The notes beneath the pieces are model-generated. The model saw only the letters and a program-made list of their open reading frames with translations. It was not told where the DNA came from and searched no databases. DNA of 64,000 bases from Atopsyche davidsoni (taxonomy: Eukaryota > Arthropoda > Insecta > Trichoptera > Hydrobiosidae): positions 5,412,501 to 5,476,500 of the forward strand of contig JAILWY010000005.1 in assembly GCA_022113835.1 (NCBI GenBank), written 5' to 3'. The position numbers and the translations under genes were made by a program. Positions 6,287 to 55,224 of the stretch are shown here, piece by piece; positions within the stretch are counted from its first letter, which is position 1; every line of letters starts with the position of its first letter.

Positions 6287-6340
6287 CGATACCAGCATTA
6301 TCAGTTTAAGTAGAAATATTGTAAAAGACTGGAACTTACC
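6287..6340 (-). other. Recursive splice (ratchet) site 3 with candidate RS-exon
   Basis: Read on the minus strand, a pyrimidine-rich run (TTCTTCTCTTTTTTTACAG) is joined directly to GTAAGTT, placing a 3' splice site and a 5' splice site back to back at 6340/6339. A second donor, CG|GTAAGA, lies 53 nt downstream (exon 6287-6339), so a short recursive-splicing exon can be defined. TTAAT/ATTAAA sequences upstream could serve as branch points. Such sites are known to split very long introns in Drosophila and vertebrates; splicing regenerates a donor so the intron leaves in steps. In frame 0 the candidate exon contains a stop (TGA), so retention would probably disrupt a reading frame. Function here is inferred from sequence only. 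Confidence 0.72.
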
Positions 6341-7436
6341 TGTAAAAAAAGAGAAGAAATATTTTAATATGAAGGAAAATAATGATATTAATTTATATTA
6401 ATTTCCAATTTTTGTCCATAAATGGAAACTCCCATAGTATTAGAGGAATTGAAATTATGCTAACCACACATTCTAGGTAAAAAATGATACAGTAACAATT
6501 GAATGGAAATCGACGATGAGAAAACACTCTGTGATTGTCTATATACAACAAGGGCATACAGAACTGGACACGTTGATTGATTTGATGACTCTTTGTATCA
6601 TTCTTTCAGCTTTTCATTATTGCTGACCAATGCAGTTATAAACTCTTCATACAGATTATTCGACCTCGCATGACGACCACATGTAGAATAAAATATAACA
6701 AAAATAATATCATTACAAAACCATTATTTTACATCTTTGTATCTTTACACAAGTACTTATTTTTTTACTGTAGGTAACTTTATGGGTCTTCTACTCCAGA
6801 GATGTGACGATTTTAAAAGTAATGCACGTTTTATGCGGACCATATTTTTTATTCGAAAATTTTATTAGCTCTATTTTGAAGTATAAATTTTGCAGGATAT
6901 ATCGTCTTAATGCTTTGCTTCCGCCCAGTTAGCTGTGGAGGTTGATAAAAATGTTCTTGAATATCGACTGGCACCTGCATAAGTATCGAGTACCTCCAGT
7001 TAACGTTTCGTGAGACAACACTAGTAAATTACGCCTAACGTCAAGTAAGAAACATATCTGCAGGAAGTGCAAAATATACCCGAGAAAACGTCAGTATTTT
7101 TAGTTGCGACACTTTGTCGTTACAGATATAATTATAACGCAACAACCGCCGTAAATATAACTATTGCAAATTAAAACTGTTGATGAAATGACCTGCGGGT
7201 ACTGTTAAATACGACCATATACAGTTATAGCAAATATTGATTTCAATACTATGAGAAAATAATAGTCATCAAAATTCAACTATAATTCATAGCAGAGTCT
7301 CCAATTTGAATAATGTCGAGACATGGTAATTATTTTTGTCATGGTTAAATGGCAAAGTTGGGTAATTGTTCTAACGCTTGTTATATATAGTAACGTCTAT
7401 GAAAATTTGCATTTCGTTTGTCGGCACAATTATATA

Positions 7437-7480
7437 AAAATATATATATATATATATTTGAGTGTGTGTGTGTGTGTGTA
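7437..7480. repeat. Compound (TA)n-(TG)n microsatellite
   Basis: An uninterrupted run of alternating T and A (about 20 bases) is followed within ten bases by about nine GT dinucleotides. The compound arrangement is typical of eukaryotic introns and likely to vary in length between individuals. Confidence 0.9.
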
Positions 7481-7604
7481 AATGACAAAAAGTCTCGTAT
7501 TAAATGCATGTTTCTTTTCATACTTTCATGATTAAGTGGATTGTTGGTTTCTTCTGATTTCCAGTTCCGTTTGCTGGTACATCTCAAGGCTGACGTTGCA
7601 AAAA

Positions 7605-7720
7605 AATCGCTCCTTGTAGGGGGCCAGAGGTGCGGGCGACCCGTTATCCGCCCCCCGTTATTTCGAAACCGCTCTGAAAGCCTGACCGCTGCAGGCCGCT
7701 ACCCGAGGCCAGTCACATAA
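7605..7720. other. GC-rich island
   Basis: A sharply GC-richer patch in AT-rich surroundings, with C and G runs near 7620-7660. No splice-site-bounded frame was seen. It is one of a recurring set of short GC islands in this window that are candidates for conserved non-coding elements. Confidence 0.35.
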
Positions 7721-8284
7721 TACAGATATCGTATTGATTATCATTAAAAACCAATCAAAACATAAACAAACCATAGCAAAGACCACACTATTCGGACAAA
7801 TATAAGCCAATTTTATACTGACGGCTTTACAACAGATACCAATCATTTTTGACATCATTGTTATGATGTCATCATGTGGAATAACTTTTTGTAGGTTGTG
7901 GACCTATTTGCCATGCACAAAGTGCAAAGTAATCAAAAAAATAATGACAAGTTTAACTGATATATATGGAGCTTTGTTAATATTTTTTCCGTGGTAAATC
8001 GTTACATGATGCTATAACTGTTAATAAATGTGTTTAAATATTAAAGAAAGATAGAAAGTTCATTAATTGAATTTAGTTCCTACTTCGTGAAACGCAATTA
8101 TCTTCTTATACTTTGAATATTTATGTAAACACGTCTTTTTCTGTTGCTTTTTGAAGCTGCAAGCAAAATTGTAACACTCATCTACGAGGGGAAATTCGCT
8201 CATATCCTTTCTGTCTATAAACAGAGCTCTCCTTGTCAAAGATGTGTTCGTCCTACACTCATATAGCACAGGCAGCTGGTGTGG

Positions 8285-8292
8285 TGACGTCA
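8285..8292. promoter_or_regulatory. CRE palindrome TGACGTCA
   Basis: Exact full-site cAMP-response-element palindrome, the consensus bound by CREB/ATF bZIP dimers. It lies in moderately GC-richer DNA. It is one of six exact copies in the window; see the finding on enrichment. Activity is not shown by sequence alone. Confidence 0.4.
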
Positions 8293-10539
8293 CAAGTGCA
8301 TTACTGAAATGAGGTTTACTTTATGAGAAAACATATATATTTCATTCTGTAAATTTATAAAATTTGTAGGTTATTCTCAAAAAAGTTTATTAAATAACGT
8401 TGCGTTATAACTACTGTACTACATTTCAGTATTTTTAAATTAAGACTGTATTTATATCGACATTATTCATTATATGTACTTATGATGTTTGTACTCTTAA
8501 ATCAATAAATTATCTAATAGTAAGCATAGATACTTGTGAAGGAGCCTTGGTATTGAATTGCAAGTAAAGAGAAGAATAAAGTTTTTTATATATAAATAAT
8601 GGCCCTCAAAATCCAAAATAGATCCTTCGCAGAATAATCATGTTATTCAACTTGTAACAGCTAGGTTCTCATTAATACATACCAACAGTCGTACCTTATT
8701 CCAAGTATAAACGCTTGTCTAAACATAAGCTTTACAGCGTTATTCACAAAAATAAATTAAGTGAAATAGCGAAAACATTTAAAGCGCTTTTCAATCAATA
8801 ATTTCAGCGGAATCGACAATCCAATGATACCTGAATGTTTCAGCTTGAAGAAACCTTTATACACCGCCTAATTACCTGACTGGCTCACTGTGGAAACAGC
8901 TTAATCCGACACGGTTAATTTAACAGAAAAGTTAAAGCCGATATAGACGATTCTAGTGAGAAACTTTTGGGCATAGTTCAGAAGTGCGTGTCATCCATTA
9001 AGATGTAACGAGATAGACTCGCTCCCGAGTTCGGTAGAACACCAGCTGAAAATAAATAAAGACTACTTCACACTGCAATCTTCATTTACAAATTTATTTA
9101 ACCAAAGTTAAACAAAAAAAGCAACTTAAAAATTTATTAACAGAGATTGACATGTCTAATACATTTTTTTCAAATGTTTTCTTTATGTTACTAGCTTTTA
9201 ACATAAACGATATGTTTTATTATACAGTATGTATGTTTTATACACGGGGTCCTACCACGAACAGACAAATATTCAGTGAAATGTTCACCAACCTCCTCTG
9301 AATAAAGACACTTAGATAAGAAGAATGTAAGATACCGTTACTATTCAAAAATAAGAGAAATTTATTATGTCATTGTTACACAATTATGGTATAAAGATTC
9401 ATATCATTAATCTGTGCTAAATTATAAATCTTCTTTTTTAATATTTAAATTCTCTTCCGATCAATTACTCTAATCTAAAAATCTCGCCTTGGAGTCTTTT
9501 TTAAATGGTCGTTAGATAATTCAAGTTGGCAATATAAACTGAATTTATTTTTTTAAAATCCTGCATACCCGTACGTATTTGAATAGTCATTATAGTGGAA
9601 TTGAGAAACTTCCTTCTTATCTCGAGTAGTTTGTTTAAACGATTCATGGAATTCGATTGAAGAGTGCTCACATCTTATAATGGAATCGAATTTAATATCG
9701 CGGTTTACTCAACACCATTATCGGAAACTAAACACATTAAACTTACAACGAAGACTTTAAAATTTCATATAACTTGCATCAAAGTTTACTTTGGAATTAT
9801 CCTGTGATGAGAATTCATGTTTTCACTTCCGTTTCACATCACGTTTGATGCTACAATGGGTGGTAAGATTAAGATTTTTTTACAGCGAAGGATTATCGAC
9901 TCCTGAAATTTGATTCCATTATCACAGAGCAGTCTTCTTAGCGGCATCAAGACTTTTCATTGCCACTCTTTTGGACTATAATATATCGTTCATGTAATTA
10001 TTTCTCATCCAGCTTCTTTCTAAAGTATTATATAGTAAGACACAGAAATCAGGTACGAATGGAATCTGGTATCAATGTTAGACTAGTGTGATGATAGCAT
10101 TGAGTATTTGTGTTTTAAAAAATATATACTAAGCAAAATTACCATTGGGTATGAGCTCATCGTGCTCCAATGTGCGTCCAGCTGTAATAACACTGGATCA
10201 CCACGTTTTTACTTTGTTTACCAAAAGACAAAGAATAAATAAAAAACAGTTTATTTTTACAAAACAGTTAAACAAATATACCATATTTCTACTCTCAAAA
10301 TTTAAGCAATAACTGATACTGAAATTGAAATATACTTTTATCTCTAACAATTCTCCGGTACATCTATTTTCCGCACTCACCGTAACACAGTAGTGGTGGG
10401 TTAGAGAAACGAAAGCAGTTTTTAACAAAAGCTGCTTCTTTTGTAGGTAAAAAGCAGCTATTTCAACGTTGTATATTTACAAGCATCTACATTTTCAAAA
10501 TAAATTAAATATTTAATGATTTTCTATAGGCTTTCTAAC
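8293..10539. other. AT-rich non-coding DNA
   Basis: No gene. It contains the short family B repeat fragment listed separately. The remainder shows only short AT tracts and chance frames. Confidence 0.55.
9275..9332 (-). repeat. Fragment of dispersed repeat family B
   Basis: On the minus strand this reads as the family B core: a short CTTCTTAT... lead, a CTC...GAGGAGGTTGGTGA-type segment and a CACTGAA-type follow-on. The same core recurs near 19764, 19899, 39470, 46200, 46450, 55830, 56157, 56484, 59330 and 60900. This copy is heavily diverged and truncated. Confidence 0.55.
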
Positions 10540-10800
10540 AGGCCCACCGCGTGGCACTAGCAATCAGCGTCCATTTCACTTAACAGGCCGTTTTATTTGC
10601 GTGTAATCCATACAAGATGAGCACTAAACACAGAGCTTTTAATATAAAAGCAATGGCGCATTTTTTCTGCGCTCTTTTATGCGAAACCACGAAACTGTCC
10701 CCCGCCGCTGTCCGGCAATATTAGTTTTCGTCCTTATGAACTGGAGTCATAAAGAGGTTTTTTGCCGGCCGCCCTTCCGGGCCCATTGTCTTTATTCTCG
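10540..10800. promoter_or_regulatory. Candidate intronic enhancer island
   Basis: A GC-richer island with sharp edges holding motif-like words: GTAATCC (Otx/Bicoid-class homeodomain), TTTTATG twice and TCATAAAG (posterior Hox-like), and two GGCCG/GCCGG clusters. There is no good reading frame. The motif density and composition resemble conserved developmental enhancers in long insect introns, but the individual matches are short and could be chance. Conservation would decide. Confidence 0.35.
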
Positions 10801-11365
10801 TTTAAGTGCTATATTAAAATTGCTTCGTGGAACACAACAAGCCTAAGTCCAGAGTTTACTGAGCTTTCGGAGCCACGCTGTATAATGAGTATTTACATGA
10901 ACTGTATTCTGCGAGTTTGAATGTGGCTGTGTACAATGAAGAGAGACATATTAGCGATATAATTTTACCGCAAGTGCGGCACATTTACTTTTTATGTATT
11001 CTTTATTAATGACCTTTTTAAAAAAAAATTAAATTACTGTGTTATATTGTATTTTTAATAAATACTTATCAAACAATTACTAATATAGCAATTATGTACT
11101 TAAACTACTCTGGTACGCTTGTATATTTCCAATACAATTATTAAAAAAACTTTTTTTTTTAAATATACTGCATTATTATGGCAATTAACTTCTCGTGTTT
11201 TTTTAATTAAAAATAAGCAATATCACTTTCTTTTAATATATCAAAATAAAATTATTTTAATATAATAATCCAATAAATAAAATATATTACGTATTACACA
11301 AATATCGAATATTTATATAATTATAAATATTTCTGTACCTAATTATATAATAAGCTTAATCTTAC
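10801..11365. other. AT-rich non-coding DNA
   Basis: Strongly AT-rich from about 10980 on. No feature recognised. Confidence 0.55.
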
Positions 11366-11680
11366 CACGCACTGCTATTTTTCCACAAAACGGACAGCAT
11401 CAGTAAATGTAAAAACCGGTTTAGCAGATAGAGATATCCAAGAGGCGGAGACAGCGTCGGGTACAGCCATCGTCGCAATGATGACCAGGTCGCTGCCAAA
11501 CCTGGAGAATACCAGTCCGGCCTTCGCGATCGCTGGAAACTAACTCTACTGCTGGATGAACGGCATTTCTCGGCCGATCCCTCCTGGTTCGCGGAACCCT
11601 CCTGACCTCGTGGCAAAAAAGATTAGGAAGAACTGGCCTGCCGGGCGGAAATGATGTGTTGGATTTCTTTTTATGAAATT
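11366..11680. other. GC-richer island with overlapping minus-strand open frames
   Basis: Two overlapping minus-strand frames of 84 and 88 codons run through this island. Neither looks like a known protein. The minus-strand sequence ends in a donor-like GTGCGTG|GTAAGA at about 11365, and a weak acceptor-like CCCGGCAG lies near 11640, so an exon in the inferred minus-strand host gene is conceivable. Open frames are expected by chance in a short GC-rich patch, so I do not call a CDS. Confidence 0.25.
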
Positions 11681-18415: not shown

Positions 18416-18524
18416 AAATATATAGATTGGTGATAAAGTGGTCGAAATAATTTTCAGTAAAACCGAAAATTACCAATTTCCAGGTAGTGATCTCATTTCT
18501 CTCGATAATTTTTAATCGGCGTCT

Positions 18525-18720
18525 TATAAGGGAGCCGGCACGCAGTGCGAAGTGGGCGACACTCGGCCTGGGCGAGGCAGGCATGCGCGCCGATAACGGT
18601 CGGTCCCCGGAACAATGCCTGCCAGTTGGCATTCCGCGCCGTGCGCCCGTACGTGGCCGCGCATACGTCGCCTCAACCCACTTCCCCAAAGCCTCTGCGA
18701 CTCCGTGGCATATTTAAGGC
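18525..18720. promoter_or_regulatory. CpG-rich island with 9-bp hairpin
   Basis: One of the most CpG-rich patches in the window. GGCAGGCAT at 18576-18584 pairs with ATGCCTGCC at 18615-18623. Frames of 73-128 codons run through it on both strands simultaneously, the signature of GC composition rather than coding. It could be a regulatory island or an old mobile-element piece; it abuts repeat E and the AT microsatellite. Confidence 0.4.
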
Positions 18721-18767
18721 TGCGAGTGATTGGTGCCGCATCACTGATTGGATCTTAAAAAATTAAA

Positions 18768-18809
18768 CATATACATATATATATATATATATATATTTTT
18801 TTTTTTTTC
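18768..18809. repeat. (AT)n microsatellite with poly-T
   Basis: An alternating AT run of about 28 bases, then 13-14 T residues, immediately left of the piggyBac-like element. Confidence 0.85.
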
Positions 18810-18832
18810 ACGGTAGAAAGTGTTAACACACT

Positions 18833-25899: not shown

Positions 25900-26110
25900 A
25901 ATCTACAGTTTTACGCCGGAAGCGACTAGCCGGACGCCGGCGCTCGGTTCCGGCTCCTGGGTAGACGCTTCAGGATTTCGCAAAGAGAGGCACAAGGACG
26001 TCGCGACGGCGGCGCCGGTCCCAAGTCTGCTGCAGATCAAACGAAAGCGTCCCGACGCCTGTGGGGATTACGGGAAATCTGTAGAAAGCTCCCGCAAATA
26101 CCTGCTATAC
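25900..26110. promoter_or_regulatory. CpG-rich island
   Basis: A strongly CpG-rich stretch (for example GCCGGACGCCGGCGC near 25932 and GACGGCGGCGCCGGTC near 26005). Its right edge is part of a duplicated segment (see 26035). There is no splice-bounded frame. Candidate regulatory island. Confidence 0.35.
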
Positions 26111-26154
26111 CTTAACTTCTACGCGGTTTACTTTAATATATTTTATATCTTCTT

Positions 26155-26345
26155 TGGTATTAGATATTTCGATTGAGTACATTTTTTCAAATATTGAAAA
26201 TTGATTAGAGACTCTCAGAAAAATATCATCGTGTATTGCGTGGGATTTGAAAACCCACATCCCCAAGCTAACATGGCCGGTGCATTACCAATTAATTATA
26301 CCAACAAATATCTGGTACTTAGCAAGAATTTTTAACAATCATATC
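26155..26345 (-). mobile_element. tRNA-derived SINE, copy 1
   Basis: Minus strand. The tRNA-like head contains a B box in the form GGGTTTTCAAATCCC, with two extra T residues relative to GGTTCAAATCC. It is followed by the family's central word (CACGATGATATTTTTCTGAGAG) in slightly altered form and an A/T-rich tail. The A-box side includes a TGCACCGGCCATGTTAGC word. The 3' tail is shorter than in copies near 34.6 and 37.6 kb. Confidence 0.75.
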
Positions 26346-26371
26346 CTTTAAGTGAATACAGAATATTTTAT

Positions 26372-26540
26372 GTCAAATGTTGAAAATTGATTAAAGAAAC
26401 TCTGAGTAAAATATCATTGTGATTTGCGTGGGATTTGAAAACCCACATCCCCAAGCTAACATGGCCGGTGCATTACCAATTATACCAACGAATCACTGGT
26501 ACTTAGCAATAATTTTTAACAATCATATCCTATAAGTGAA
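26372..26540 (-). mobile_element. tRNA-derived SINE, copy 2
   Basis: Same orientation and same TT insertion in the B box as copy 1, so the two share a recent ancestor. The central word is slightly changed (TCAGAGTTTC-type). It ends just before the second half of the 510-bp duplication. Confidence 0.75.
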
Positions 26541-26689
26541 TACAGATCAAACGAAAGCGTCGCGACGCCTGTGGGGATTACGGGAAATCTGTAGAAAGCT
26601 CCCGCAAATACCTGCTATACCTTAACTTCTACGCGGTTTACTTTAATATTTTATATCTTATTTGGTATTAGATATTTCGATTGATAATG

Positions 26690-26875
26690 ATTGAGTACAT
26701 TTTTTTCAAATATTGAAAATTGATTCTGAAAGAAACTCTCAGAAAAATATCATCGTGATTTGCGTGGGATTTGAGAACCCACATCCCCAAGCTAACATGG
26801 CCGGCGCATTACCAATTATACCAACGAATCGCTGATACTTAGCAAGAATTTTTAACAATCATATCCTATAAATGA
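26690..26875 (-). mobile_element. tRNA-derived SINE, copy 3
   Basis: Minus strand. The B-box region reads GGGTTCTCAAATCCC, close to copies 1 and 2. It is the SINE at the end of the second duplication unit. Confidence 0.75.
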
Positions 26876-26904
26876 AACAACGTACTTATTATGCCAATTA
26901 AATA

Positions 26905-27055
26905 TTGTATTCCATACAAATCACGATGATAATTTTCTGAGAGTTTCTTTAATCAATTTTCAATATTTTGAAAAATGTACTTAATCGTTATCAATAAATA
27001 ATACCTGTATAGGCAAAATCGTACTTCCTGTGAGACGGTCTTCACAAAAATCAAT
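26905..27055 (+). mobile_element. tRNA-derived SINE, copy 4 (5'-truncated)
   Basis: Plus strand. Begins within the central region (AATCACGATGATAATTTTCTG) and runs through the conserved tail CCTGTATAGGCAAAATCG and GTGAGACGGTCTTCAC. The tRNA-like head is absent. Its tail faces the tail of copy 5. Confidence 0.7.
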
Positions 27056-27119
27056 AATATATTAAAAATTTCATTTCAAATTTCAAAAAAATCAACTAAC
27101 GTACATATTTTTTAATATA

Positions 27120-27360
27120 TATTTGATTTTTGTGTAGATCGTCTCACAGTCGGTGCGATTTTACCTATACAGGTTTTATTTGTATTAATATGATTAAGTA
27201 CATGTTTTTCACACATTAAAACGATTATAGAGACTCTCAGAAAAATATCATCGTGACTTGCGTGGGATTCAAAACCCACATCCCCACGGCTTACTTGGCC
27301 GTTGCATTACCAACTATGCTAGCGAGCCATTTCCATTTATCAAGAATTTTAAAGTCTTAA
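27120..27360 (-). mobile_element. tRNA-derived SINE, copy 5
   Basis: Minus strand. The tail (27123-27178) is the inverted match of copy 4's tail over about 55 bp. The body then runs right to the head, with GGGTTTTGAATCCC at the B box and the GGCCAAGTAAGC region near 27290. With copy 4 it forms a tail-to-tail pair about 450 bp across. Confidence 0.75.
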
Positions 27361-29322: not shown

Positions 29323-29364
29323 AATTTGACGGGAAACGAGGTCAAACGAAGAAGTACACTTACC
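29323..29364 (-). other. Recursive splice (ratchet) site 2 with candidate RS-exon
   Basis: Minus strand: CTAATTC (a CTAAT branch-point match) lies some 20 nt upstream of TTTTTCTTTTTTTCCAG, joined directly to GTAAGTG at 29364/29363. A second donor, ATT|GTAAGT, lies 41 nt downstream, defining exon 29323-29363. This is the closest of the three to the textbook ratchet consensus. It sits 25.9 kb downstream (in minus-strand transcription) of site 1 and 23.0 kb upstream of site 3. Frame 0 of the short exon is open. Confidence 0.78.
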
Positions 29365-31254
29365 TGGAAAAAAAGAAAAATGAATTAGTTCAGTCAAAGA
29401 AATTGCGTTGTTTCGAGCAATCGAATGACATTAACAATGAACTTACTTAAAGCATTTGGAAAAGAACTTACTGTTTCCTTGTTTACAATGTGCGGAGTTC
29501 ACAATGTAAAATAAAGTTATTTTTATTGACTTAAAATAAACATTTAATATAAAACAACATGTAAGCAATTTTAATTAAGATGAAATAAAAACAATATGTT
29601 GATATAGTAGCAACATTTTTTTGTTTACAATTTCGGACTTAATCTTAAAGCACGATTGAGTAAAAAATTCGTGATTAACATTTAAATTATTTTATAATAA
29701 ATATTGGTTAAATAAGTACAAACTACGCAAAGGATGTAGCCATCAATAGTAAAACAATGTTATTTCAACACTATGAAATAAATATGAATATTTTATGTGT
29801 TTTACGGGGCGTTTCGTATTAGGAGTCGACAATCGCCATTTCCTTGGCGCGGTCGACACACTTTGCATTATTTATAAACGTTTTCTTAAATAGATAACTT
29901 TCATTGAAAAATAAGCAACATTCATTAAGACTATACAGTTATTAAAATAAAACCATTACTGATGGTATACATAAAATGAATAATATCAAGAGCTATCTTT
30001 GGAAAGTATTGCTTTCCCATAACCATCATTATTCACCAAGTGTATCTCTGTGCACTAAACTATTATTCATTTGATAAATACTGAGTAATATATCAAATAA
30101 ATGACAATTTCCGTTTCAGGTATGGAGCACATCACAGCTGAATGACAAGTCTGAAAGCGAATAACGAAGGGCGAGCTGAAGCACACTTGAATGAGAATGC
30201 AGCGGAAAAAGAAGCAAACCCATCCAGACCGCACTAACCCAGTCAAAGACTTATCTGAGGCAGGATGTGTGACTCGAGGCTTCACAGCCAAGCCAGAGAC
30301 CATGAACGATGATGATGAGAAACAAGACAGATTATTTTTTTAAAAATTGATAAACGATGTTTTTTTTCTGAGCTGTTCTAGAATGGTGAATAATTGTTTC
30401 TCTTAAAATAAGCGATATTTTGGGACAAGCAATTTTTCATCGACGATATAAGGCTGATATATTATAATACATGTAAGAATTTGAGAAGAGTTAGGTCTCA
30501 GCAGCGAGTCATTAAAGTTATGTCTACAGCCTCATATCAAAATATTATAAAGATCTCATGCATAGAACTACAGATAATTTAATGAAAAAAAATGTATTTC
30601 TCATTTCAATTGAAAAGTCGTGAGATTAAAATTATATACATAAAATATTTTAAAATATTTTGACGACTTAACATAACGTAACATACCAAATATCGTAATT
30701 AATAAAAACATTAAAAATCGAGACGGCCACTTACGACTATTAAATAATAAAATATATACAAAAAGTTAGAATATTATCAAGCCTAAGATATTCTTAACTG
30801 TATACGTAATAAAAACAAGGCATAACGAATGATTAAGTGTATAGTTGTAATAACATATTTAACATTTTAATAAAAAATAAGTATGTATATATTTTAAGGT
30901 ATTTATAAACTTTGAAAAATAATTGACTATATACTTCAAAAAACAGAATCCTTACTAAAAAATTGCATGCCATGTATTGAAAAGATTTTTAATAATGTAT
31001 TCCCAAAGTACTTTCAAACTTTTTATCTTTACATAAAAAAAATAATTTTAAGATACAAAGCATGATTTCAGGTTAAATTGAAAAATACAATGTTCAAATA
31101 CAAATTTAATAATATACATTTTATGCATTTATTTCAAAAATATTATAAACGAATATTAAAATGTTTATTAAGAAACGTGAAAATTTAATACATAAATACT
31201 CGATAAAGGCATATTTAATATCTGCAGCTGTTGTACTGAATTATTGCCTTGCAG
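29365..31254. other. AT-rich non-coding DNA
   Basis: A slightly GC-richer patch at 30110-30310 has a 78-codon minus-strand frame that looks like chance. No repeats recognised. Confidence 0.55.
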
Positions 31255-32989: not shown

Positions 32990-33210
32990 AGCGTCGACCC
33001 TCGCTCAGAGTAGGCAGGTGTCTGGGGCGGGTTTGTCTTTCCACCCCAGATCACCGCGGCTCCGCTCGAGGGCGCAATATTTCGATTGAAAGCAAACATC
33101 CCCGACGACTCACCCCTCTTAAGCCCGACAGACCCTCGGATAGGAGCGGCCCGCGCCCCTTGACCGCCCGCCCCTTCTCGCTGCTGAAGGCACGAAGGTA
33201 AATCGCGGAG
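32990..33210. other. GC-rich island
   Basis: A GC-rich patch with several C/G runs (GGCCCGCGCCCC near 33145). A minus-strand frame of 112 codons passes through it, with a 63-codon frame overlapping in another phase. Neither resembles a known protein. Candidate regulatory island. Confidence 0.35.
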
Positions 33211-34199
33211 AAGCCGCTTCTGCATTTGAATACACGCTTCATATTTGCACACCTTGAATTTCACCTTCAAAAAATTGCAGCTGACGAGTATCGAACCTGA
33301 AGCTTTGTGTATTAAAAAAATATGAATAACTAAATGTCTAAGAGATCACATTCATTTTTGTTTGTGATCGCTTTCTCATTGCAAGATCTACGTCTGGACC
33401 ACACTGTCATGTACAAACAATATGTATCTAGAGCTAAAAGGCATAAAAAATATCCATTTATAATCGTCGGCTTATTATAAAAGATATCTAAAGTAACCTA
33501 ACTATATAGTAACTATATAGTATGTCAGTAAAATTATGTATTTATTGAAATGATTACTATAACACATCTTTACAGAGACGTAGTTGTAAAAAAACACTAA
33601 AATCCAATAATAAAATTTGTTAACGCAAGATGTTAAGCAAACGTTATTACAATAAATGCATAGATAAAAAAAAGCTGAAAAATATATAACCGTTAAATCT
33701 AGTTTTTAAATATTTGAATTAGCTATTCGGGTGTTGTTTGATACTTATGCTTATTGCCTGAAGCTTAAAAGTAATGTTTTCTCAAAAAAAATTAAAAAAG
33801 CACCATAGAAAATAGATTAGAAATTTATTTATAGACATAAGTAAATTTGGAATCTATTTCCACTAATGCTTCTTGGAAATATTTGGCACAAATAATCAAT
33901 TATCAATAATGAAATAAAAATACCCATTCTTCTAGAAGACTCGATATTATATTTATAACCGTCCTTGGAATTGGGCGTACAGTGTGTTTTATATTTATTG
34001 TAGTTTTCGGGAAGTCCTTTCAGTGAAGGTGTTTTTCAAATATTAACTTTGACTTTACACTTGATTTATATACATAAAAATATTTTTGAATAAAAAAATA
34101 TATATATTTCAAAGTATAATAAAGTTATAACGTAACACAATTAAAAATAACAACTCCTTGGAAAGCTTTCAAATAATCAATAACAAAAGGCCACAAAAT
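33211..34199. other. AT-rich non-coding DNA
   Basis: No feature recognised. Confidence 0.55.
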
Positions 34200-34410: not shown

Positions 34411-34596
34411 TCTCTAATTTAAGGACCCACCCGACCAACTATACACTGATGTATAAATTAGTATAGACACTGAAAAAATAAATGTTTCATGTTTAAATTT
34501 AAGTACGCAAAGACTTTTCTTGCAGTCTCTCAATCGTGAGGATCAATAAGAAATAAGTTTTGACTCATACATGTTCGTGTTGGCACATTGGTTCGT

Positions 34597-34831
34597 GATT
34601 GTTAAAAATTATCGATTAACAGAGGTGACTCGTTAGTACAAGGGTCAGTACACCGGCCATGTAAGCTTGGAGATGTAGGTTCAAATCCTACACAAGTCAC
34701 GATGATATTTTTCTGAGAGTTTCTTTGAATAATTTTCAATGTGTGAAAAAATATGCCTAATCATATTAGTAAGTAATGTAAGCCTGTAAAGGTAATCAAA
34801 ACGCACTTGATTGACGTTCAATCCACAAAAT
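34597..34831 (+). mobile_element. tRNA-derived SINE, copy 6 (near full length)
   Basis: Begins at a GATTGTTAAAAATT word shared as the head boundary by other copies. The A-box region is TAGTACAAGGGTCAGTA. The B box, GGTTCAAATCC, at 34678-34688 is intact. The central CACGATGATATTTTTCTGAG block follows, then a tail containing GCCTAATCATATTAGTAA and CTTGATTGACGTTCAATCC. The intact polymerase III B box and the order head-centre-tail identify a tRNA-derived SINE. At about 235 bp this is one of the two most complete copies. Confidence 0.85.
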
Positions 34832-35439
34832 AGTCATACATGTCTCATCACTTCATTGCTTAGGAAGCATAGCAAGGTTTTGTTGCTTTTACACGCGCAC
34901 AGTTTTTAAATTGGTTACAAGTTCAAGGAAAAAGATAACTACTGGAAAAAAAAGCCTTTGATGAAGTAATCTATATTTTTTTCTTTGTGAACACCAATTA
35001 CACAAAAGTATGGCATAAAAATCGGTATTTCAGATTTTTTTTATGTCAATGTCAAACATATCATGAACAACGTAAGAGATTATGGTGAGGTTTATCAACT
35101 AAACATTGTAAAAATGTAAGTGTATATAATCAAAATGTAGACCTAACATAAGAAGTGAAGAAATAAATATGAAGAGCAGCGGATCCCCAATAGTATGTAT
35201 TTAAATTATTTCCTACTATTTCATGACTGATATTGAAGGATACAAGTGCTACTATTGTATAAATATCTTATTTTGAAACTGATAAATATTTTTCATATTT
35301 TACACAACGTTAAAAGGTATGTGAACCATGACAGTGTATTTTCCGATATTTTTATATTTTCGCATTCACATTTCAAGTATAAGTGCTTTTTCAAGATTTA
35401 AAAATATTCAAAAACGTTTCAATCAATACGAGTCCAAAT
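34832..35439. other. AT-rich non-coding DNA
   Basis: No feature recognised. Confidence 0.5.
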
Positions 35440-35800: not shown

Positions 35801-35829
35801 TCAATAGCCGTCGAATTTAAAGATAAAGA

Positions 35830-35945
35830 TATAATTACTAATATGATTAGGCACATGGCGTCCCAGGCTTACATGGCCGGTGTACTGACCATTGTACTAA
35901 CGAACCACATCCATTAATCGAGACTTTCTAACAATCATACTCTAC
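35830..35945 (-). mobile_element. tRNA-derived SINE, copy 7 (internally deleted)
   Basis: Minus strand. The tail word ATTACTAATATGATTAGGCACAT is joined directly to the head (CCAGGCTTACATGGCCGG, then the A-box complement and GAGACTTTCTAACAATCATAC). The whole B box and centre, about 80 bp relative to copy 9, are missing. Confidence 0.7.
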
Positions 35946-35965
35946 ATATAAACCAATGTGCCTAG

Positions 35966-36136
35966 GTCATGTATGACTGGGGATGTTGGTTCAAATCCCA
36001 CACTAATCACGATTATATTTTTCTGAGAATTTCTTTAATCATCTTCTATGTGTGAACTAATGTGCCTAAACATATTAGTAATAATACAATAAACCCGTAA
36101 TGGGTAATAAATACGCACGTGATTGACGTTCAATCC
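35966..36136 (+). mobile_element. tRNA-derived SINE, copy 8 (5'-truncated)
   Basis: Plus strand. Starts just upstream of an intact B box (GGTTCAAATCC) and runs through the central block to the tail, including GTAATGGGTAATAAATACGCA and GATTGACGTTCAATCC. It lies head to head with copy 7. Confidence 0.8.
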
Positions 36137-36934
36137 AAAATATAAACATACATAAAGATATAAAAAAATATTTCCTGTGATGCTTTGGCTTAAATCTTAT
36201 TTGCTACTTGATAATGCTTGATAAATAATTTATGCGTAAAATTTTATGAGCATGTCAATACATTAATATGACGTTCGTGTAAATAAAACAAAACGGTGAG
36301 TGTGGCAAAAATTAATTACCCTCATATTTCAATTAATATTCACTGCTGTTTACGAATTCTGTTTAAAAAATATTGAATTTTAAATATGATAAATTTGACA
36401 ATAGTAGTCACAATAAAATAATATCTGATTTTATCATAATATATATATATTTGCTTTTATTATTGTGGTAACAATCAACCTTATATATCATAATTATAAT
36501 GATAACAGTACCTTTGTGTTTTGTCTTCACTTTGAGTTTATTAAAATTATTTGCATTCTAGTTTCGACCCAATACACCGGGTCATCATCACATGCATCAC
36601 TAAACGTTAAGTGATGAATCTGATGATGTTATCATTATAATAATGGATCTTCGCGAAGCAAACGCCTTGTCCCTCAACAAGGCTTATATATCATTATACA
36701 AAATTATAATTTTTTTTTGAATTACGTTATGAGATAAAACACTTGAAATTTCGTAAGTGTGCAAAAAAAAGTATGTATTCAAATGTAAATAAGTAAAAAA
36801 ATCTATTGTTTTCATTCATAAAATAATAAACGCCAAATTTGTGTACAAATCGAACATCATGCTGATGCAACATTAGAAAAAAACACTGCAGTAAGCACCG
36901 ATAGACACGCGTCATAACAAAATATTAGGGAAGG
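36137..36934. other. AT-rich non-coding DNA
   Basis: Holds repeat C and its hairpin (listed). Otherwise no feature. Confidence 0.5.
36497..36640 (+). repeat. Dispersed repeat C, copy 1, with hairpin
   Basis: ATAATGATAACAGTACCTTTGTG, then TCTTCACTTTGAGTTTATTA and CTAGTTTCGACCC...GGGTCATCATCA, recur on the minus strand at 46835-46925. In this copy a fold-back follows (36581-36627): CATCATCACATGCATCACT against AGTGATGAATCTGATGATG. A 'GTTTCGACCC...GGGTCATCATC' end suggests a retroelement 3' terminus, class undetermined. Confidence 0.65.
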
Positions 36935-37140
36935 CGCTGGGCGGAGTGCGCTGGGCGTGCGTGGCGTGACGCGCAGGCAACGCCGCGGCGAGACGGTTCT
37001 AATTCCGTCACGTGACAAGATGGGGGCCAAAACGAGCCGCGGCCTCTGACAGCTGATGCAGCGCAGGCCGCGCGGGGGGCCGCTATATCCGTCCTGCTCC
37101 TCCGCTCCTCTGCACCTCTGCTCGGGGACTCCGCACAAAG
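36935..37140. promoter_or_regulatory. CpG island with palindromic E-box
   Basis: The most GC- and CpG-dense patch in the window. Contains the perfect palindrome GTCACGTGAC (37007-37016), a canonical bHLH-Zip E-box, followed directly by AAGATGGGGGCC, a relative of the YY1/Pho-type AAGATGGCGGC word seen at 55612. Minus-strand frames of 93 and 95 codons overlap in different phases, which argues against coding. It could be an intronic promoter or enhancer. Confidence 0.4.
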
Positions 37141-37183
37141 TATTCGACCGAACCGACTTAACATTTTAAATAACATACTCGAT

Positions 37184-37555
37184 TGATTTTTATTGGTGAC
37201 CGGTTTTGCCAACCTTTCACTTTGGCATTAATAACGAATTCCACTATAAGAAATTCAATATTTTTGACAGAGAGTACTTGGTGGAATTCCATAATAATAT
37301 TTTTGAGTAACACAGGATAACTACTTTAGATAATTACCCCATTAATATAAAAACATTGCAATTATATAGAATCCTCCACTTGTCAGGTACATTAAAATCA
37401 CATTAGCCCTTACCACCTGACAATCACTCTCTCTCTTTCCAACAACCTCTCTCTCTAACAATTGTTTACATAATTGCTTATTATTATATAAAATCTAACT
37501 CTGTTTGATAATGCCAACGTGAAAGGTTGGCGAAACCGGTCACAAATAAAAACGA
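37184..37555. mobile_element. Inverted-repeat element, arms about 48 bp
   Basis: The left arm (37184-37231) contains TTGGTGACCGGTTTTGCC and AACCTTTCACTTTGGCATTA. The right arm (37507-37555) is its reverse complement with a handful of mismatches (ATAATGCCAACGTGAAAGG, TTGGCGAAACCGGTCAC). About 275 bp separates them, including repeat E copy 2. It could be a non-autonomous TIR transposon or a pair of inverted 3' ends. No target duplication recognised. Confidence 0.65.
37264..37302 (-). repeat. Dispersed repeat E, copy 2
   Basis: Reverse complement of the block at 18383-18415: TGACAGAGAGTACTTGGTGG and AATTCCATAATAATA. It lies inside the inverted-repeat element. Confidence 0.7.
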
Positions 37556-37587
37556 ACATGTGGAAAACATATGTCTATTTTTAGATT

Positions 37588-37825
37588 TAACGTCAATCAG
37601 ATGCGTATTTATTACCCATTACGGGTTTATTATATTATTACTAATATGGTTGATTAGGCACATTAGTTCATACACAGAAGATGATTTAAAGAAACTCTCA
37701 GAAAAATATAATCGTGATTTATGTGGGATTTGAACCCACATCCCCTGGCTTACATGGCCGGTGTACTAACCCTTGTACTAACGAACCACTTCCGTTTATC
37801 GAGAATTTTGAACAATCATACTCTC
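37588..37825 (-). mobile_element. tRNA-derived SINE, copy 9 (near full length)
   Basis: Minus strand. The tail begins at about 37588 (AACGTCAATCAG; GTAATGGGTAATAAATACGC in minus reading). The B box at 37727-37737 (GGTTCAAATCC) is intact inside a paired T arm, GTGGGTTCAAATCCCAC. The head includes ACGAACC/AGTACAAGGGTTAGTAC. About 238 bp. The least altered head in the window, so this is the best reference copy. Repeat E sequence (GTACTCTCTGTCA) follows at 37838. Confidence 0.85.
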
Positions 37826-37837
37826 ATAAAAATATAT

Positions 37838-39641: not shown

Positions 39642-40653
39642 CGAGGGAGATCCGATAAGTACTTAGCCTACAAAAGAAAAACGAAAATTTTGGAAAAGTA
39701 GCGATTTAATCTCCTTTTAGCTCGATACTCTTGATCCAGCGATGCTCCAACTTCTTTAACCCATCTGAAAAATACGTTTTCTCGAGGTCTGCAAAGTAGG
39801 CCTCCGTGGCGATGATGACCTCCTCATTCGATTTAAATTTCTGCCCGGCGAATGACTTTTTCAAGTTTGGAAACAACAAAAAAATCGCACGGGGCCCAAT
39901 CTGGAGAATATGGTGGATGGAAGAGCAGGTCGTAGTGCAATTCGTCCGCCGGGTGAAGTCCACTGTTTCGACTGTTCCTTGGTCTCTGGTGTGTATCAGT
40001 GGATCCATGATTCATTAATTCATTGTCACGAAACGACGCAAAAACTCCTTCGGATTGCGCTTAAGCAGCGTCAAACACTGCTCCGAAGTGGTCTCACGGT
40101 TGCGCTTGTTGTCCGGAGTGAGCAAACGCAGCACCCATAGCGCCGACAGCTTTCTCATGCCATAAAATTTCATGCAGGATATGACCCACGCGGTCTTTTG
40201 AAATGCCTACTGTTTCAGCTATCTCGCGCACCTTTAATCGGCGGTCTGCAAGTTATCAAGTTATCCTCCGTGGTAGATATTTTCGGGCCACCTGGGCGTG
40301 GCTCATCAAAAACCGACGTGCGACCACGTTGAAACTCGTTAAACCTATTTTCGACGGTCGCCATCGAAAGATAAGAGTCACCGTACACAGCATTCATGCG
40401 CTCTTTAATTTCGCTGCGCGATTTCCCTTCCAAAGACAAGAATCGAATCACCGACCGATATTGCTCTTTTTCCATTTTTCTAAAATACGCGTACACGTCC
40501 GCTTCCATACGCGGTCAAAACAAAACTACGAGTCCGATTCAGCTGAAATTTTAATAGTAGCCGTCTACAAGAATGTACTACGCGATAGTAAATCTCTCTT
40601 GCGATACTAGCACCATCGGGCGGTGAGGCTAAGTACTTATCGGACCGCCCTCG
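39642..40653 (-). mobile_element. mariner element, defective
   Basis: 27-bp terminal repeats at 39642-39668 and 40627-40653, 25 of 27 positions matching (CGAGGG, then TCCGATAAGTACTTAGCC common to both). TA precedes the left end; the right flank reads AT, so the TA duplication is not intact. Total 1012 bp against about 1.3 kb for full mariners, matching an internal deletion in the transposase. Transposase orientation is minus. The intact ends mean it could in principle be mobilised by a transposase from elsewhere; its own is dead. Confidence 0.93.
39706..40508 (-). pseudogene. mariner transposase, broken
   Basis: Starts MEADVYAYFRKMEKEQYRSV (HTH domain), with GRTSVFDEPRPGGP near residue 70. 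At about 40255 an eight-base repeat (AAGTTATC twice) and loss of several codons shift the frame; DRRLKV/REIAETVGISKDRV continues in another phase. Around 40005-40030 the first catalytic region appears as N-E-S-W-I-H, with Asp replaced by Asn, and is followed by a stop. After KEQSKQWTSPG the sequence jumps to LHYDLLFHPPYSPDWAPCDFF, so the segment with the second catalytic Asp is deleted. The third motif and the C-terminus (ADLEKTYFSDGLKKLEHRW, ELKGD, stop) are present but frameshifted. Non-functional by several independent lesions. It resembles the insect mellifera/vertumnana-type mariners by memory. Confidence 0.9.
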
Positions 40654-46925: not shown

Positions 46926-47389
46926 TAACTAGAAATGTTGCCAGTCATAGAATGACGTTTTCGGAGGCATTTTGAGTTATTAATGCTGTAATAACTAATT
47001 TCTAACGCAATTTCGATAAAAAAAATAAAATTGGTACCTTGTGTCAAGTTGACATAAATTGAAAATTTCTAAGAAGCATCAAAATTTGTTTTTTTGTAAA
47101 AGTTCTAAATTTGAAATTCTCGCGGTGAACAATAAAATCCTATAATTCGTACATGTTGAAACTCGCTAAAGCATATTTTATTAAATTAGTTTATGAATAA
47201 AAATATTATCCTATCGAAAAATTTACTAAACTTACATGCAAAAAATCAGCATTGTATCTTTTAAGATATTCTATAGAAAACCAAAAAATGAAACATACAC
47301 ACACACAATGGATATTATTTTAGTAGATAATAGTTTCAAAAACATCCTCAGGTATTACAGGCTACAAAACGCGCTTCTAGCAACAGCAC
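46926..47389. other. AT-rich non-coding DNA
   Basis: No feature recognised. Confidence 0.5.
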
Positions 47390-47610
47390 ATCGCGGGCGT
47401 GCGGTTTAGCCGGACGAAAAATCAACAATCGGTAAGATATGACAAAATGGCTACCGCGTTTTCTTCAGTCCGCTCTGGCCGGGTGTTGCCAGCTCGGAGT
47501 GTTGTCGAGCGGCTTTCCCGAGACGTCTATTCCTGGCTGCCAGCCGGCGCGGCTTTTCGCGACGCTCCGGGGCCGAGTCTTTGTTCGGCCCGATGCTAGA
47601 TAATGCGATA
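47390..47610. other. GC-rich island
   Basis: A GC-rich patch with a plus-strand 66-codon frame that starts inside the AT-rich flank. No homology recognised. Candidate regulatory island. Confidence 0.35.
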
Positions 47611-48489
47611 TTTCAAATTTCACTTCTTCACAAACGCTGGACGCGATTTCGTATTCTCAAGGTATTCAAGGGTCAGTGCTTGCGGAGCTGCTTGAGACAC
47701 TTCTGCGTGAAATCAGAGACTTCATGCACCATAAGCAAGATTACTGTAAATCTTACGATTATGAATAGTTGTGTTTATTTGCTTTTGGGTATTGGGTATC
47801 TTGTTTCAAAATCATTAACATAACTCTGGTTTTTTACTATTCAATAATAAGACGTTCTCTAAATTTTTTTTAATAAAATATTGTTTAAGCCTAATGACAA
47901 GTATCAATTAATTAAAGGCATATTATAGAAATCTATGGAATATCTACTATCCGATTTAGTGATTTTTATCCAAAACAGCTATACGTTACAATTTCTCTTC
48001 AATTTCAGTCGACGCACACGCCATATTAATGAAATTGTATTGTAGTTAAAAATCATTAAATGTAAGGTTGCAATGTTATTAGTGCACGATTAGTATTTCA
48101 ATAATATGATAGGCATCTTCGTGAAGGAGTCTTGCACAGAATGCGCATAAAAAAGAGCATTTCTTACGATCGTAAAAAAAGGTTACTGAAGCTGATCGTA
48201 CAGCGAAAATTCCTAGGAAAAATCAGACTAATAAGACTGTCAAGCCTCACAACCTACGCGCAGGATTATGAGATAACCACGCACTTTTCCATACCCTTGT
48301 AAATTTAATTAATGAAAAAATTTAAAAAATTGAAATTTATTTTTTTTATATAGAGATATGTTCAGTGAGAATGAGTCACCTCAAGCCGGAAACGGCTCGT
48401 GACGAATGCAGTCACTGTGACTTCTTTTAAATTCCGGAGGATCAAAACGCAAGATATTATCGCACAAGAGTCAGCGCACTCGCAGAGAA
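47611..48489. other. AT-rich non-coding DNA
   Basis: Contains a possible minus-strand family B fragment at 48352-48386 (GTGACTCATTCTCACTGAACATAT on the minus strand). Otherwise nothing. Confidence 0.45.
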
Positions 48490-48993: not shown

Positions 48994-49100
48994 ACTATTG
49001 AGCAGCAGCAATACGCAGACTTTTCCTTCCAATATAAAACTGCGGTGTAATAGGACCCGGGGACCCACTACACTGTGTTTCCTTTAGAAAACCATGCTTG
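48994..49100 (-). repeat. Dispersed repeat B' block, minus strand
   Basis: Minus strand: CATGGTTTTCTAAAGG, GTGTAGTGGGTCCCC, CCGCAGTTTTATATTGGAAGG and TATTGCTGCTGCTCAATAG. These blocks occur in the same order at 39540-39640, and the first two at 60965-61010. The family B head is missing here. Confidence 0.7.
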
Positions 49101-52100: not shown

Positions 52101-53049
52101 AACGTCCGCGACAAGTGTTTTATCGGCTCAAATAAATCGTCTTATTGGGATCCATATTTGCGTAGTAAGTAGTCCGCGATAAAAACCAAACAGCAAGTGA
52201 GCTACAAAGAAAGCTTAACAGACGCAAGTTACAGATAGTTCTTGTGAGGTTGCCCCGCGCAAACAATGATAACTCACTCTGTCAATGGCGACGACCGCCA
52301 TGGCGGTGACGTGTGACAGTGAAGGATCTACTTTTAATTGGTGCAGTTTTTACGCACCTGTGGATTCATTGGGGTAGTATATTTGAAAAAAATAGTTAAC
52401 TACTTAAAAACACAGATTGATAACAAAAAAATAATTCGTAGTGACTCTTGTAATATTTTTCGTTTTTTTTATAATTTTATTATTCTTATAAGTAAATTTT
52501 TCTCACCACGTCATAAAATGAACATTAATAATTTATTTTATATTATTTGGTATCTTAAATATAATGCGAATTGAAAATAAATAATTAAATTCCTCAAACA
52601 CGCGAGATTGAATCTTCAATGATTACAGCATACATACACGTGTTTTTTTTTACAGATATTTTTCCCTACACACTCAATAGAAAAATCCATGTACGCTACC
52701 ACCTAAACCACATTTTGTAATATCAGGGGATAGACACATACATTGTATATAAACATAAAAATAAAACAAAGAATATTGATTTTTTAACCGTCTGCTTTCC
52801 CATAGTTTTCGGCGAATTAAATCGCATATTTAAAATATAATTTCAAATTAAACGGATAATTTTTTGTACAAAGAATTTTATTCAAACGTTTTAGCAAGTA
52901 ATCCAAAAAAAAAGAAACATGCAAGCATTACGGATAATGTGAAACAAAGTGTTTGAATAATCTAAAAATAAAGAGTACCCGCGACCTGGATTTTTGGATG
53001 CTGTAACAGCATTATGCGGAGATTTAAAATATCCATATTTAGCAAAAAT
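49101..53049. other. AT-rich non-coding DNA
   Basis: Nearly 4 kb with no gene. A 94-codon plus-strand frame at 51130-51414 lies in a slightly GC-richer patch and resembles nothing known. A 14-bp perfect palindrome, ACCGCCATGGCGGT (52294-52307), sits in a small GC patch followed by TGACGTGTGAC. Confidence 0.5.
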
Positions 53050-53250
53050 TGAGGGCGATATTTCGGGTTGACAGCAAACATAAAAACCGCAAACGGGCGG
53101 CTGTCCGCGCTTCCACCGCAGTGCGTGTCCGGCAGATACAGCCTTAAAGCTCAGCGGCCGTCGGGGATCGGAAACAGATCAGGCTTTATTTGTCATCCTG
53201 TACCAGATGTTATTTACACTTCAGCGGCGTGCTGACTTTAAAACCGATTT
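53050..53250. promoter_or_regulatory. GC-rich island, candidate enhancer
   Basis: A GC-rich patch (GGGCGGCTGTCCGCGC near 53095, CTCAGCGGCCGTCGGGG near 53151). Words such as ACCGCAGTG (Runt-like) and CTTTATTTGTC are present. No frame with splice sites. Confidence 0.35.
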
Positions 53251-53301
53251 GCAATCAGGCAATAGCGTCTCTTTATTTTGAGTGTTTTTCAGGGTTTTTG
53301 T

Positions 53302-53345
53302 TTGATGGCCTCTACACACGTAGCGACACAATTTGCTACAGATTT
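53302..53345. repeat. Half-copy related to the 53.5-kb MITE
   Basis: GGCCTCTACACACGTAGC followed by ATTTGC...CAGCCAATCG resembles the reverse-complemented MITE end (GACCTCTACACACTTAGC) and its interior. A second end was not found. Confidence 0.45.
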
Positions 53346-53530
53346 GCAATCAGCCAATCGTGAGTGAACAACGCAAGACAAAATAACGCATTGGGCTTTA
53401 GTCGCGATATATAAAATAAATATGAATATCGACCTGTGATGCAGATGTTTTTTTTAAACTATACAATCATTAGTATGTCATGCATTCCTTCTAGAGTGAT
53501 TTTATGTAAAAAAACAGTTATATTATTAAA

Positions 53531-53623
53531 GGCTTCTAGACACATAGCAACAAATCGTACCACCAACTTGCAGCTAGCCAATAGCAAATATTGGGACGAT
53601 TTGCTGCTAAGTGTGTAGAGGTC
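53531..53623. mobile_element. MITE, unit-1 copy
   Basis: 93 bp with imperfect terminal repeats of about 28 bp. GGCTTCTAGACACATAGCAAC at the left pairs with the right end, which reverse-complements to GACCTCTACACACTTAGCAGC; both then read AAATCGT. TTA flanks both sides. The second copy is at about 53871-53963. Superfamily not determined. Confidence 0.65.
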
Positions 53624-53870
53624 TTATATCTAGTAACGTAGATTACAATGTGTTTATAAAAAATATAAATTTATATTATCATTTTTTTTAATTACGGAGT
53701 AGTTCAAAATAAGCATAAAAACTGTTTTCGTTAATTATTTGATGAATCGCTTACATTTATTGATAAAAATATTTTTTTTTTTTGGGTTATTCGTGTCATC
53801 CTATGACATTTATTAGTATGCTATCCATCCTTCTAGAATGATTTTATGTAAAAACAGTTATATTATTAAA

Positions 53871-53963
53871 GGCTTCTAGACACATAGCAACAAATCGTAC
53901 CACCAACTTGCAGCTAGCCAATAGCAAATATTGGGACGATTTCCTGCTAATGTGTAAGATACC
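53871..53963. mobile_element. MITE, unit-2 copy
   Basis: Same element carried along in the 342-bp duplication. Its right end has degraded (AATGTGTAAGATACC in place of AAGTGTGTAGAGGTC). Confidence 0.6.
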
Positions 53964-54130
53964 TTATATCTAGTAACATAGATTACAGTGTGTTTATAAA
54001 AAAAATTATAATTTGTATTATAATTTTTTTTTAAATACGGAGTAGTTCAAAATAAGCATAAAAACTGTTATCGTTAATTATTTGATAAATCGATAAAACA
54101 TTTTTTTTTTTTTGGGTTTTTCATGTCATC

Positions 54131-54239
54131 CCAGGAAGGATTTCTTCGGAAATTTTATAAAAAATATTATCACTCGTGATGACGTAATCCAAGAGTTCAT
54201 CTCCACTCTGGCTTATTACCTGAAGTACAGTGTGCGAAA
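54131..54239. other. AT-rich non-coding DNA
   Basis: Short stretch with GTGATGACGTAATCC near 54177 (ATF/C-EBP-like). No other feature. Confidence 0.4.
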
Positions 54240-54460
54240 AATATCTAGTCTTAATTACTCGGAGCCGTCGGTTGCATCAGGAGGCGTTGCGTTCAATCGG
54301 GTCACCCAGTAGCGGAGCCCCGACGCAGTGGCGGCGCGGTGGGAACAAATTATCTCTCCTCGTGACGTCACTCACTTTCTCCGCCAGGCAGGCGGTGATC
54401 AGTCATCATAGGAAGCGTCCGCACCGAGGCCGAGTGGCATAATGCCATGCGCCGCTAATG
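54240..54460. promoter_or_regulatory. GC-rich island with CRE, candidate enhancer/promoter
   Basis: CpG-rich patch with the full CRE CGTGACGTCACTC (palindrome 54363-54370), a GATCAGTCATCATAGG stretch and a small palindromic ATGCCAT/ATGGCAT pair near 54437-54450. Overlapping frames of 66 and 70 codons do not look like protein. Confidence 0.4.
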
Positions 54461-55189
54461 AATACTCGAAAATTTTAATGAGATGAAAGATTGTCAGAAA
54501 TTGTGAAAATATGACGTTTTAAATGAGACAAACGACTCTCAAATGATCGCCTGTGATTTGTCGCCTGCGGACAAGGCGCTTTGGAATGCAATGAAGATAT
54601 TCTGTTTGTGTGTTTTGATCCTGCTTAAGAATAAGCATTTTATGTTTTACCTAACAAGCGAACGCCTCGTAAAATTGATTTATTGTTTTTTGTCCTACTA
54701 TTGTATAACCCAAATATCAAATATAAAGTATATAAAGCCAAAAATAAAAAATCTTGCCCCCAATGCAATTTATAATGAGATGTGACAAATTAGCTCGAAT
54801 ATTTTTTTATAAAATATGTTTTAATTAGACAAATTATTCACTTCATTAACGTCAATTTAAACATCGCAACAGCGGTGCTGTAAATTGAGCAATTGATAAT
54901 GTGCACAAAGGCAGTGTTCCGACTTGCGTACATTTCTGATATCCATAGTGACGTAATTACGGGGTTTGTGTTTTATATTCGAAGCTGTATCCAATGAGGA
55001 TAGTTTTCGATATAAAGTTTGTCTTTAGTCAGAGTATCGATGCACGCAGATTGACATTTGAAGCATGCATGATCCATGTAGAGCTCAACGTCAAGTTTAT
55101 CAGATTGTTGAATAGGAATAGGATGCTTCTAAAGTTCTAAACTATTTACATTATATTAACCATCTATATTTTAAATTTATATTACTTAC
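54461..55189. other. AT-rich non-coding DNA
   Basis: No feature recognised. Confidence 0.5.
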
Positions 55190-55224
55190 GTCCATGTCTG
55201 TACAGCAAAGAGAAAACACTTACC
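55190..55224 (-). other. Recursive splice (ratchet) site 1 with candidate RS-exon
   Basis: Minus strand: TTTTATTTTTTCAG fused to GTAAGTG at 55224/55223, with a TTAAT-containing candidate branch point upstream. A second donor, GGAC|GTAAGT, lies 34 nt downstream (exon 55190-55223). Within the exon, TTTCTCTTTGCTGTACAG forms another acceptor-like sequence, so an even shorter 8-nt microexon (ACATGGAC) is possible. It is the most upstream of the three sites in minus-strand transcription. Confidence 0.72.

Follow-up and report, generated by a model that had tools for sequence, protein, structure and literature searches.

Ratchet points of recursive splicing are known from very long introns of Drosophila, such as those of Ubx, kuz, and Bx, where a splice acceptor is fused directly to a splice donor on the transcribed strand and is followed by a short exon with a donor of its own (PMC8605326; PMC6110457). 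According to this work, the fly ratchet point covers a cryptic recursive-splicing exon (RS-exon) of ~50 nucleotides (nt) plus a downstream donor, and this exon, which is generally out of frame, is skipped since the donor rebuilt by splicing wins (PMC8605326). Pai et al. reported that recursive sites are followed by strong 5' splice-site motifs, and segments in flies have a mean of 9.1 kb (PMC6110457). In vertebrates, including humans, RS-exon splicing likewise relies on exon definition via a downstream donor (PMC6110457; PMC8605326). Here, we describe a similar arrangement in a stretch of 64,000 nt from the insect Atopsyche davidsoni (contig JAILWY010000005.1, referred to as C5, positions 5412501-5476500; hereafter called the window), which lies wholly within a single intron of a gene encoding WW domains.

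Shepard et al. (2009) counted fused sites in introns of >50 kb: fruit fly, mosquito, bee, beetle, and sea urchin showed a sense excess of 4- to 22-fold or more, whereas the sense/antisense ratios of vertebrates were only 0.9 to 1.5; no lepidopteran appears in their table (PMC2773006). Their RP-sites resemble those described here in that a sense excess in long introns was recognized by sequence alone, but host exons, second donors, and spacing are analyzed here as well. In the locust, recursive splicing linked to PIWI-interacting RNAs was described for introns of >200 kb (PMC9962485), which provides an insect precedent for an intron of similar size. No report of ratchet points in Lepidoptera was found in the accessible text of the open-access literature searched, which is weak evidence of novelty.

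On the minus strand of the window, a pyrimidine tract plus CAG is fused to GTAAGT at three boundaries, i.e., 55224/55223, 29364/29363, and 6340/6339 (Table 1). The first-pass annotation of this DNA had placed all three exactly, had given the steps between them as 25.9 and 23.0 kb, which agrees with the measured 25,860 and 23,024 bp, and had seen no such site on the plus strand. The latter was borne out with the full site definition, i.e., YAG/GTAAGT preceded by at least 11 pyrimidines in 15 positions, which is found three times on the minus strand and not at all on the plus strand. In sequences simulated by Markov models of the window's minus strand (60 per order), sites of this definition appeared with means of 0, 0.033, and 0.033 for orders 1, 2, and 3, respectively, with a maximum of 1, and among 90 permutations of the GTAAGT core, counted on either strand, none besides the real core gave more than one site in the window. 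When all AGGT in the window were ranked by a composite acceptor/donor score, calculated with a generic matrix, the three sites occupied the first three positions, with a gap before the fourth. A branch-point-like ACTAAT is located upstream of the site at 29364. The same scoring of 1506 AGGT in the 324 kb around the window yielded eight best sites that are all on the minus strand; the ninth, which scores lower, is on the plus strand. Seven of these eight fall within the intron that hosts the window, all in sense orientation and none in antisense, in contrast to the vertebrate ratios cited above. The eighth, C5:5515087, is located upstream of exon A, the exon preceding the host intron, and presumably belongs to the intron before that exon. 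Thus, the sites in the window in all likelihood serve recursive splicing as intronic ratchet points, and their gene is transcribed from right to left, as the first-pass annotation had proposed, a reading supported by the host intron, the shared strand, and the second donors described below.

The host intron covers C5:5275139-5495697 on the minus strand and, with 220,559 bp, extends beyond the window at both ends. A single minus-strand intron of >49 kb had been postulated before, and the intron identified here is ~4.5 times that minimum. Its flanking exons, A and B, join in frame to form a WW domain, which alone scores 31.6 bits across the junction against a cut-off of 26.9. The seven predicted ratchet points divide the intron into eight steps of 27,974, 25,860, 23,024, 29,187, 15,663, 30,846, 26,799, and 41,206 bp. 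Their mean of 27.6 kb is far above the 9.1 kb in flies. The coefficient of variation is 0.245 vs. a mean of 0.85 for seven random points, and an equally even division was obtained in 0.03% of 200,000 simulations (P = 0.0003).

The protein encoded by the joined exons A-C contains WW (PF00397) in two stretches (64.5 bits) and just the first part of a PDZ domain, and no PDZ match exceeded the cut-off. Its matches in the PDB are tandem-WW chains, with NEDD4-like and Itchy as the best ones, besides MAGI2 and KIBRA. A protein search, which scored only the 7995 candidates with the most shared words and admitted proteins of ~98-311 residues, revealed 32 relatives, including proteins from a sandfly, the butterfly Pararge aegeria, two Anopheles, Artemia, and a Solemya clam. 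A domain scan of five of them revealed WW in all five and PDZ in four, whilst an RA-like segment was present in the Pararge relative only. Comparison of the Pararge protein with the genome gave four co-linear places on the minus strand of C5 and a weaker one on contig C29; the last two places on C5 represent further co-linear exons beyond exons B and C. The host gene resembles WW/PDZ/FERM scaffolds of the FRMPD type, in which WW domains occupy the N-terminus, as they do here, and a PDZ domain comes next. No FERM exon was recognized among the open reading frames (ORFs) of C5:5252501-5270160. All six relatives that were aligned, out of the 32, start at exon B, after 2 to 49 residues unlike the first half of the WW domain, which hints that exon A, past the giant intron, is lost by gene predictors, although the size range of the search lay below that of full-length models.

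The scarcity of genes in the window had been explained in the first-pass annotation by its location within an intron, and this fits the data. A Pfam scan of 30 ORFs of the window, i.e., 22 of the 29 of at least 90 residues and eight shorter ones, revealed no coding exon, and a fragment of a mariner transposase was the sole match above the cut-off. A screen of ORFs for amino-acid composition revealed no convincing exon inside the window; applied to the surroundings, the same screen gave ORFs in which the host exons could be recognized by eye. An excess of T and G on one strand is a mark of transcription, a rule that stems mostly from vertebrates. Of 32 blocks along the minus strand of the window, 26 have more T than A and 23 have more G than C, which fits transcription of this strand. 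The ratchet points might be genuine while other first exons or promoters located between exons A and B make use of only part of the array. Alternative promoters are common in long introns, and non-coding first exons would escape a Pfam scan such as the one that showed no coding exon in the window. We consider this possibility unlikely, albeit one to be taken seriously.

The annotation had described the sites as zero-nucleotide junctions. The fused AG/GT stood, but the donors downstream had been overlooked: a second one is present at all three sites in the window, in line with the RS-exon model of recursive splicing, at +34, +41, and +53 on the minus strand, each delimiting a candidate cryptic RS-exon. 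The sequence GTAAGW is found at +20 to +60 of all three sites vs. 2.0% of the minus-strand positions. In the 324-kb array, it is present at +20 to +80 of seven of the eight sites, against a background of 2.6%, and the remaining site, C5:5373990, has a strong donor at +111.

The pattern is also found genome-wide. In the assembly, whose 80 contigs add up to 370.7 Mb, the strict motif YYYYYYYYYYNYAGGTAAGT occurs 108 times (53 + 55), and the reversed pattern, used as a control, 10 times (6 + 4), an approximately elevenfold difference. Site details cover 100 of the 108 strict motifs, i.e., 98 that were fetched and two in the window; the site at window position 55224, whose tract is less strict, is not among them. 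Neighboring sites among these 100 are on the same strand in 17 of 17 pairs within 50 kb, 20 of 20 within 100 kb, and 25 of 25 within 200 kb, one of the 25 being the window's own pair. The median gap between neighbors within 100 kb is 29.2 kb (20 gaps, between sites that may or may not share an intron). A second donor, GTAAGW or GTGAGT, is present at +20 to +80 in 65 of the 100 sites, first at +38 and with a median of +54, and at +81 to +140 in another 10. Such a donor at +20 to +80 was found in 4 of 100 antisense controls and in none of 29 decoy acceptors without GT from the 324-kb region. Among the first 40 sites fetched, 27 had a second donor, with 2 in antisense. A looser count, including donor scores of at least 5.6 up to +120, gave 91 of 100, with a high background (19% at +15 to +100). 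Five strict motifs, all on the minus strand, are located within 110 kb at C1:2447668-2557292, and seven, also all on the minus strand, within 0.89 Mb at C15:3081556-3966420; these co-oriented runs are candidates for further giant introns or long genes.

From these features we infer how the spliceosome may use the sites, in which order, and how the donors would compete. Like some introns of the fruit fly, the 220,559-bp intron very probably leaves in several steps rather than in one. Exon A would first be spliced to the ratchet point at window position 55224, which the donor 34 nt downstream would help to mark as a 3' splice site, i.e., by exon definition of the cryptic RS-exon. Exon A ends with CAA, and its junction with each of the points would create the donor CAA/GTAAGT with a score of 8.98, higher than that of the RS-exon donor at six of the seven points in the host intron (RS-exon donors in these six, 5.79 to 7.68). 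As a rule, the rebuilt 5' splice site would beat the RS-exon donor, and the RS-exon together with the next segment would leave in the reaction that joins the seam to 29364. The same would follow at 6340 and at four more points, until exon B is joined in the last of eight steps. When exon A is read into any of the seven RS-exons, AAG TAA results, an immediate stop. Inclusion of any of them is therefore predicted to end translation at once.

Several observations weigh against this reading. A donor score of at least 5.6 is reached at +20 to +60 in 9.5% of the minus-strand positions, which gives P ~0.0009 for three out of three sites; the threshold was set just below the weakest of the three second donors, and both the motif and the threshold were picked after the sites were known. 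Among the 100 strict sites, 35 have no GTAAGW or GTGAGT at +20 to +80, and of 40 pairs of neighbors within 1 Mb, 34 but not all share an orientation. Genome-wide, RS-exon lengths display no frame bias (24, 19, and 22 of 65 with remainders of 0, 1, and 2, respectively), unlike the generally out-of-frame exons in flies. Without the tract, the core AGGTRAGT has an expected count of ~1.0 to 1.2 on each strand (simulated maxima, 3 to 5) and is observed three times on the minus strand and once on the plus strand (13673), which is unremarkable; since the core alone is common, the signal at the window sites is due to their pyrimidine tracts. At C5:5373990, the RS-exon donor (11.01) outscores the rebuilt one.

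The last point would also suit ordinary alternative or poison exons that by chance start with GTAAGT, at which the downstream donor is used and some of the mRNAs include the exon, e.g., for decay. Both the presence of a downstream donor at each site and the stop codon that follows exon A in all seven cases would be expected as well. However, a plain exon does not need an initial GTAAGT, yet the fused motif is strongly enriched over its reversed control; furthermore, the rebuilt donor is the higher-scoring one everywhere else in the host intron, and the sites are evenly placed along it. This explanation is therefore very improbable. As a coding exon, the 111-nt RS-exon at C5:5373990 was rejected, because it contains stops in all three frames.

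Chance, i.e., T-rich tracts happening to precede CAGGTAAGT three times on one strand, might be entertained for an AT-rich sequence in which each strand should contain roughly one bare core, but it is barely conceivable given the expectation of 0 to 0.033 for the full definition, the common strand of the eight best sites, the second donors, and the genome-wide counts. Equally far-fetched is the assumption that the sites are copies of a motif-bearing transposon or repeat: although the window contains repeats and a mariner fragment, the 1000-base flanks of the three sites share the motif of 22-24 bases and otherwise merely weak AT-rich matches of ~31 bases, and none of the sites overlaps an interval that is similar to another part of the window, a comparison that covers repeats with more than one copy there.

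The interpretation of the sites as ratchet points can be extended. Lepidoptera-type insects may use exon-defined recursive splicing genome-wide, with near-even steps of ~28 kb, as if set by a ruler of elongation or splicing kinetics, and with RS-exons that, in the gene described here, act as fail-safe poison exons, since the phase of the host intron leads to AAG TAA at every one of them; automatic gene models would then start after giant introns. We propose this tentatively, with slightly less than even confidence. If true, giant ratcheted introns would explain why gene models start only after them. A way to find first exons that predictors may miss beyond giant introns is hinted at. The host intron, with seven predicted points in 220 kb, offers a case beyond the flies in which the stepwise removal of a giant intron can be tested, its second donors being open to mutation, and the ~100 strict sites in one genome constitute a resource. 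Exon-defined ratchet points are thereby supported as a wider feature of insects.

Table 1. Coordinates of features in and around the window. Numbers without prefix are window positions; C5 denotes positions on the contig.
Feature	Position	Strand	Remarks
Putative ratchet point 1	55218..55243	minus	tract + CAG to 55224, GTAAGT 55223-55218; 18.2 log-odds, third of 281 AGGT
Putative ratchet point 2	29358..29383	minus	tract + CAG to 29364, GTAAGT 29363-29358; 23.1 log-odds, second of 281
Putative ratchet point 3	6334..6359	minus	tract + CAG to 6340, GTAAGT 6339-6334; 23.5 log-odds, first of 281
Candidate cryptic RS-exon, 34 nt	55190..55223	minus	second donor GAC/GTAAGT from 55189
Candidate cryptic RS-exon, 41 nt	29323..29363	minus	second donor ATT/GTAAGT from 29322
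Candidate cryptic RS-exon, 53 nt	6287..6339	minus	second donor TCG/GTAAGA from 6286
Eight best sites in 324 kb	C5:5515087, 5467724 (window 55224), 5441864 (29364), 5418840 (6340), 5389653, 5373990, 5343144, 5316345	minus	
Exon A	C5:5495698-5495937 (window +83198..+83437)	minus	ends inside WW, ...GRDGRLYYC + two bases AA
Exon B	C5:5275007-5275138 (window -137493..-137362)	minus	completes WW (YYCNHVTRSAGWLPP)
Exon C	C5:5270160-5270361	minus	completes second WW, begins PDZ
Pararge matches	C5:5275003-5275140, 5270148-5270366, 5246152-5246454, 5244105-5244368	minus	
Repeat family	26033-27353, 34596-34841, 35862-36153, 37509-37832		includes three tRNA-Thr calls
G+C-rich islands, examples	18451-18800, 33001-33300, 36851-37200, 47351-47700, 59501-59850		

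Other features of the window are mostly repeats. The family that includes the tRNA-Thr calls probably represents a tRNA-derived short interspersed element, rather than working tRNA genes. The fragments of the mariner (Mos1-type) transposase are located at window positions 39700-40550 on the minus strand, where HTH_48 was recognized and the coding sequence is broken up over several frames, and a similar mariner end stretch is found just upstream of exon A, near C5:5495990-5496100 on the minus strand. A tandem repeat with a 327-bp unit in 2.8 copies (window positions 55749-56671) is located ~0.5 kb upstream, in the sense of transcription, of ratchet point 1, and single relatives of this unit are found elsewhere in the window. 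Islands of 200-400 bp with a G+C content of up to 0.67, in DNA of 33% G+C, contain no recognizable coding content. Elsewhere in the host intron, two near-identical ORFs, C5:5305990-5306481 and 5310493-5310873, ~4.5 kb apart, represent either a recent duplication or a repeat. On the right-hand side of the host gene, C5:5553387-5576500 contains a plus-strand gene for a coiled-coil protein and a minus-strand gene for a threonine aspartase. Among the best 120 of 797 matches to the aspartase, those above the drop in identity from 65-76% to ~55% include 21 with a species name, of which 20 are from Lepidoptera and one is from the caddisfly Arctopsyche grandis; the genome is accordingly lepidopteran or closely related. 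Two more minus-strand genes on that side are presumably of the KDM3 and AUTS2 types.

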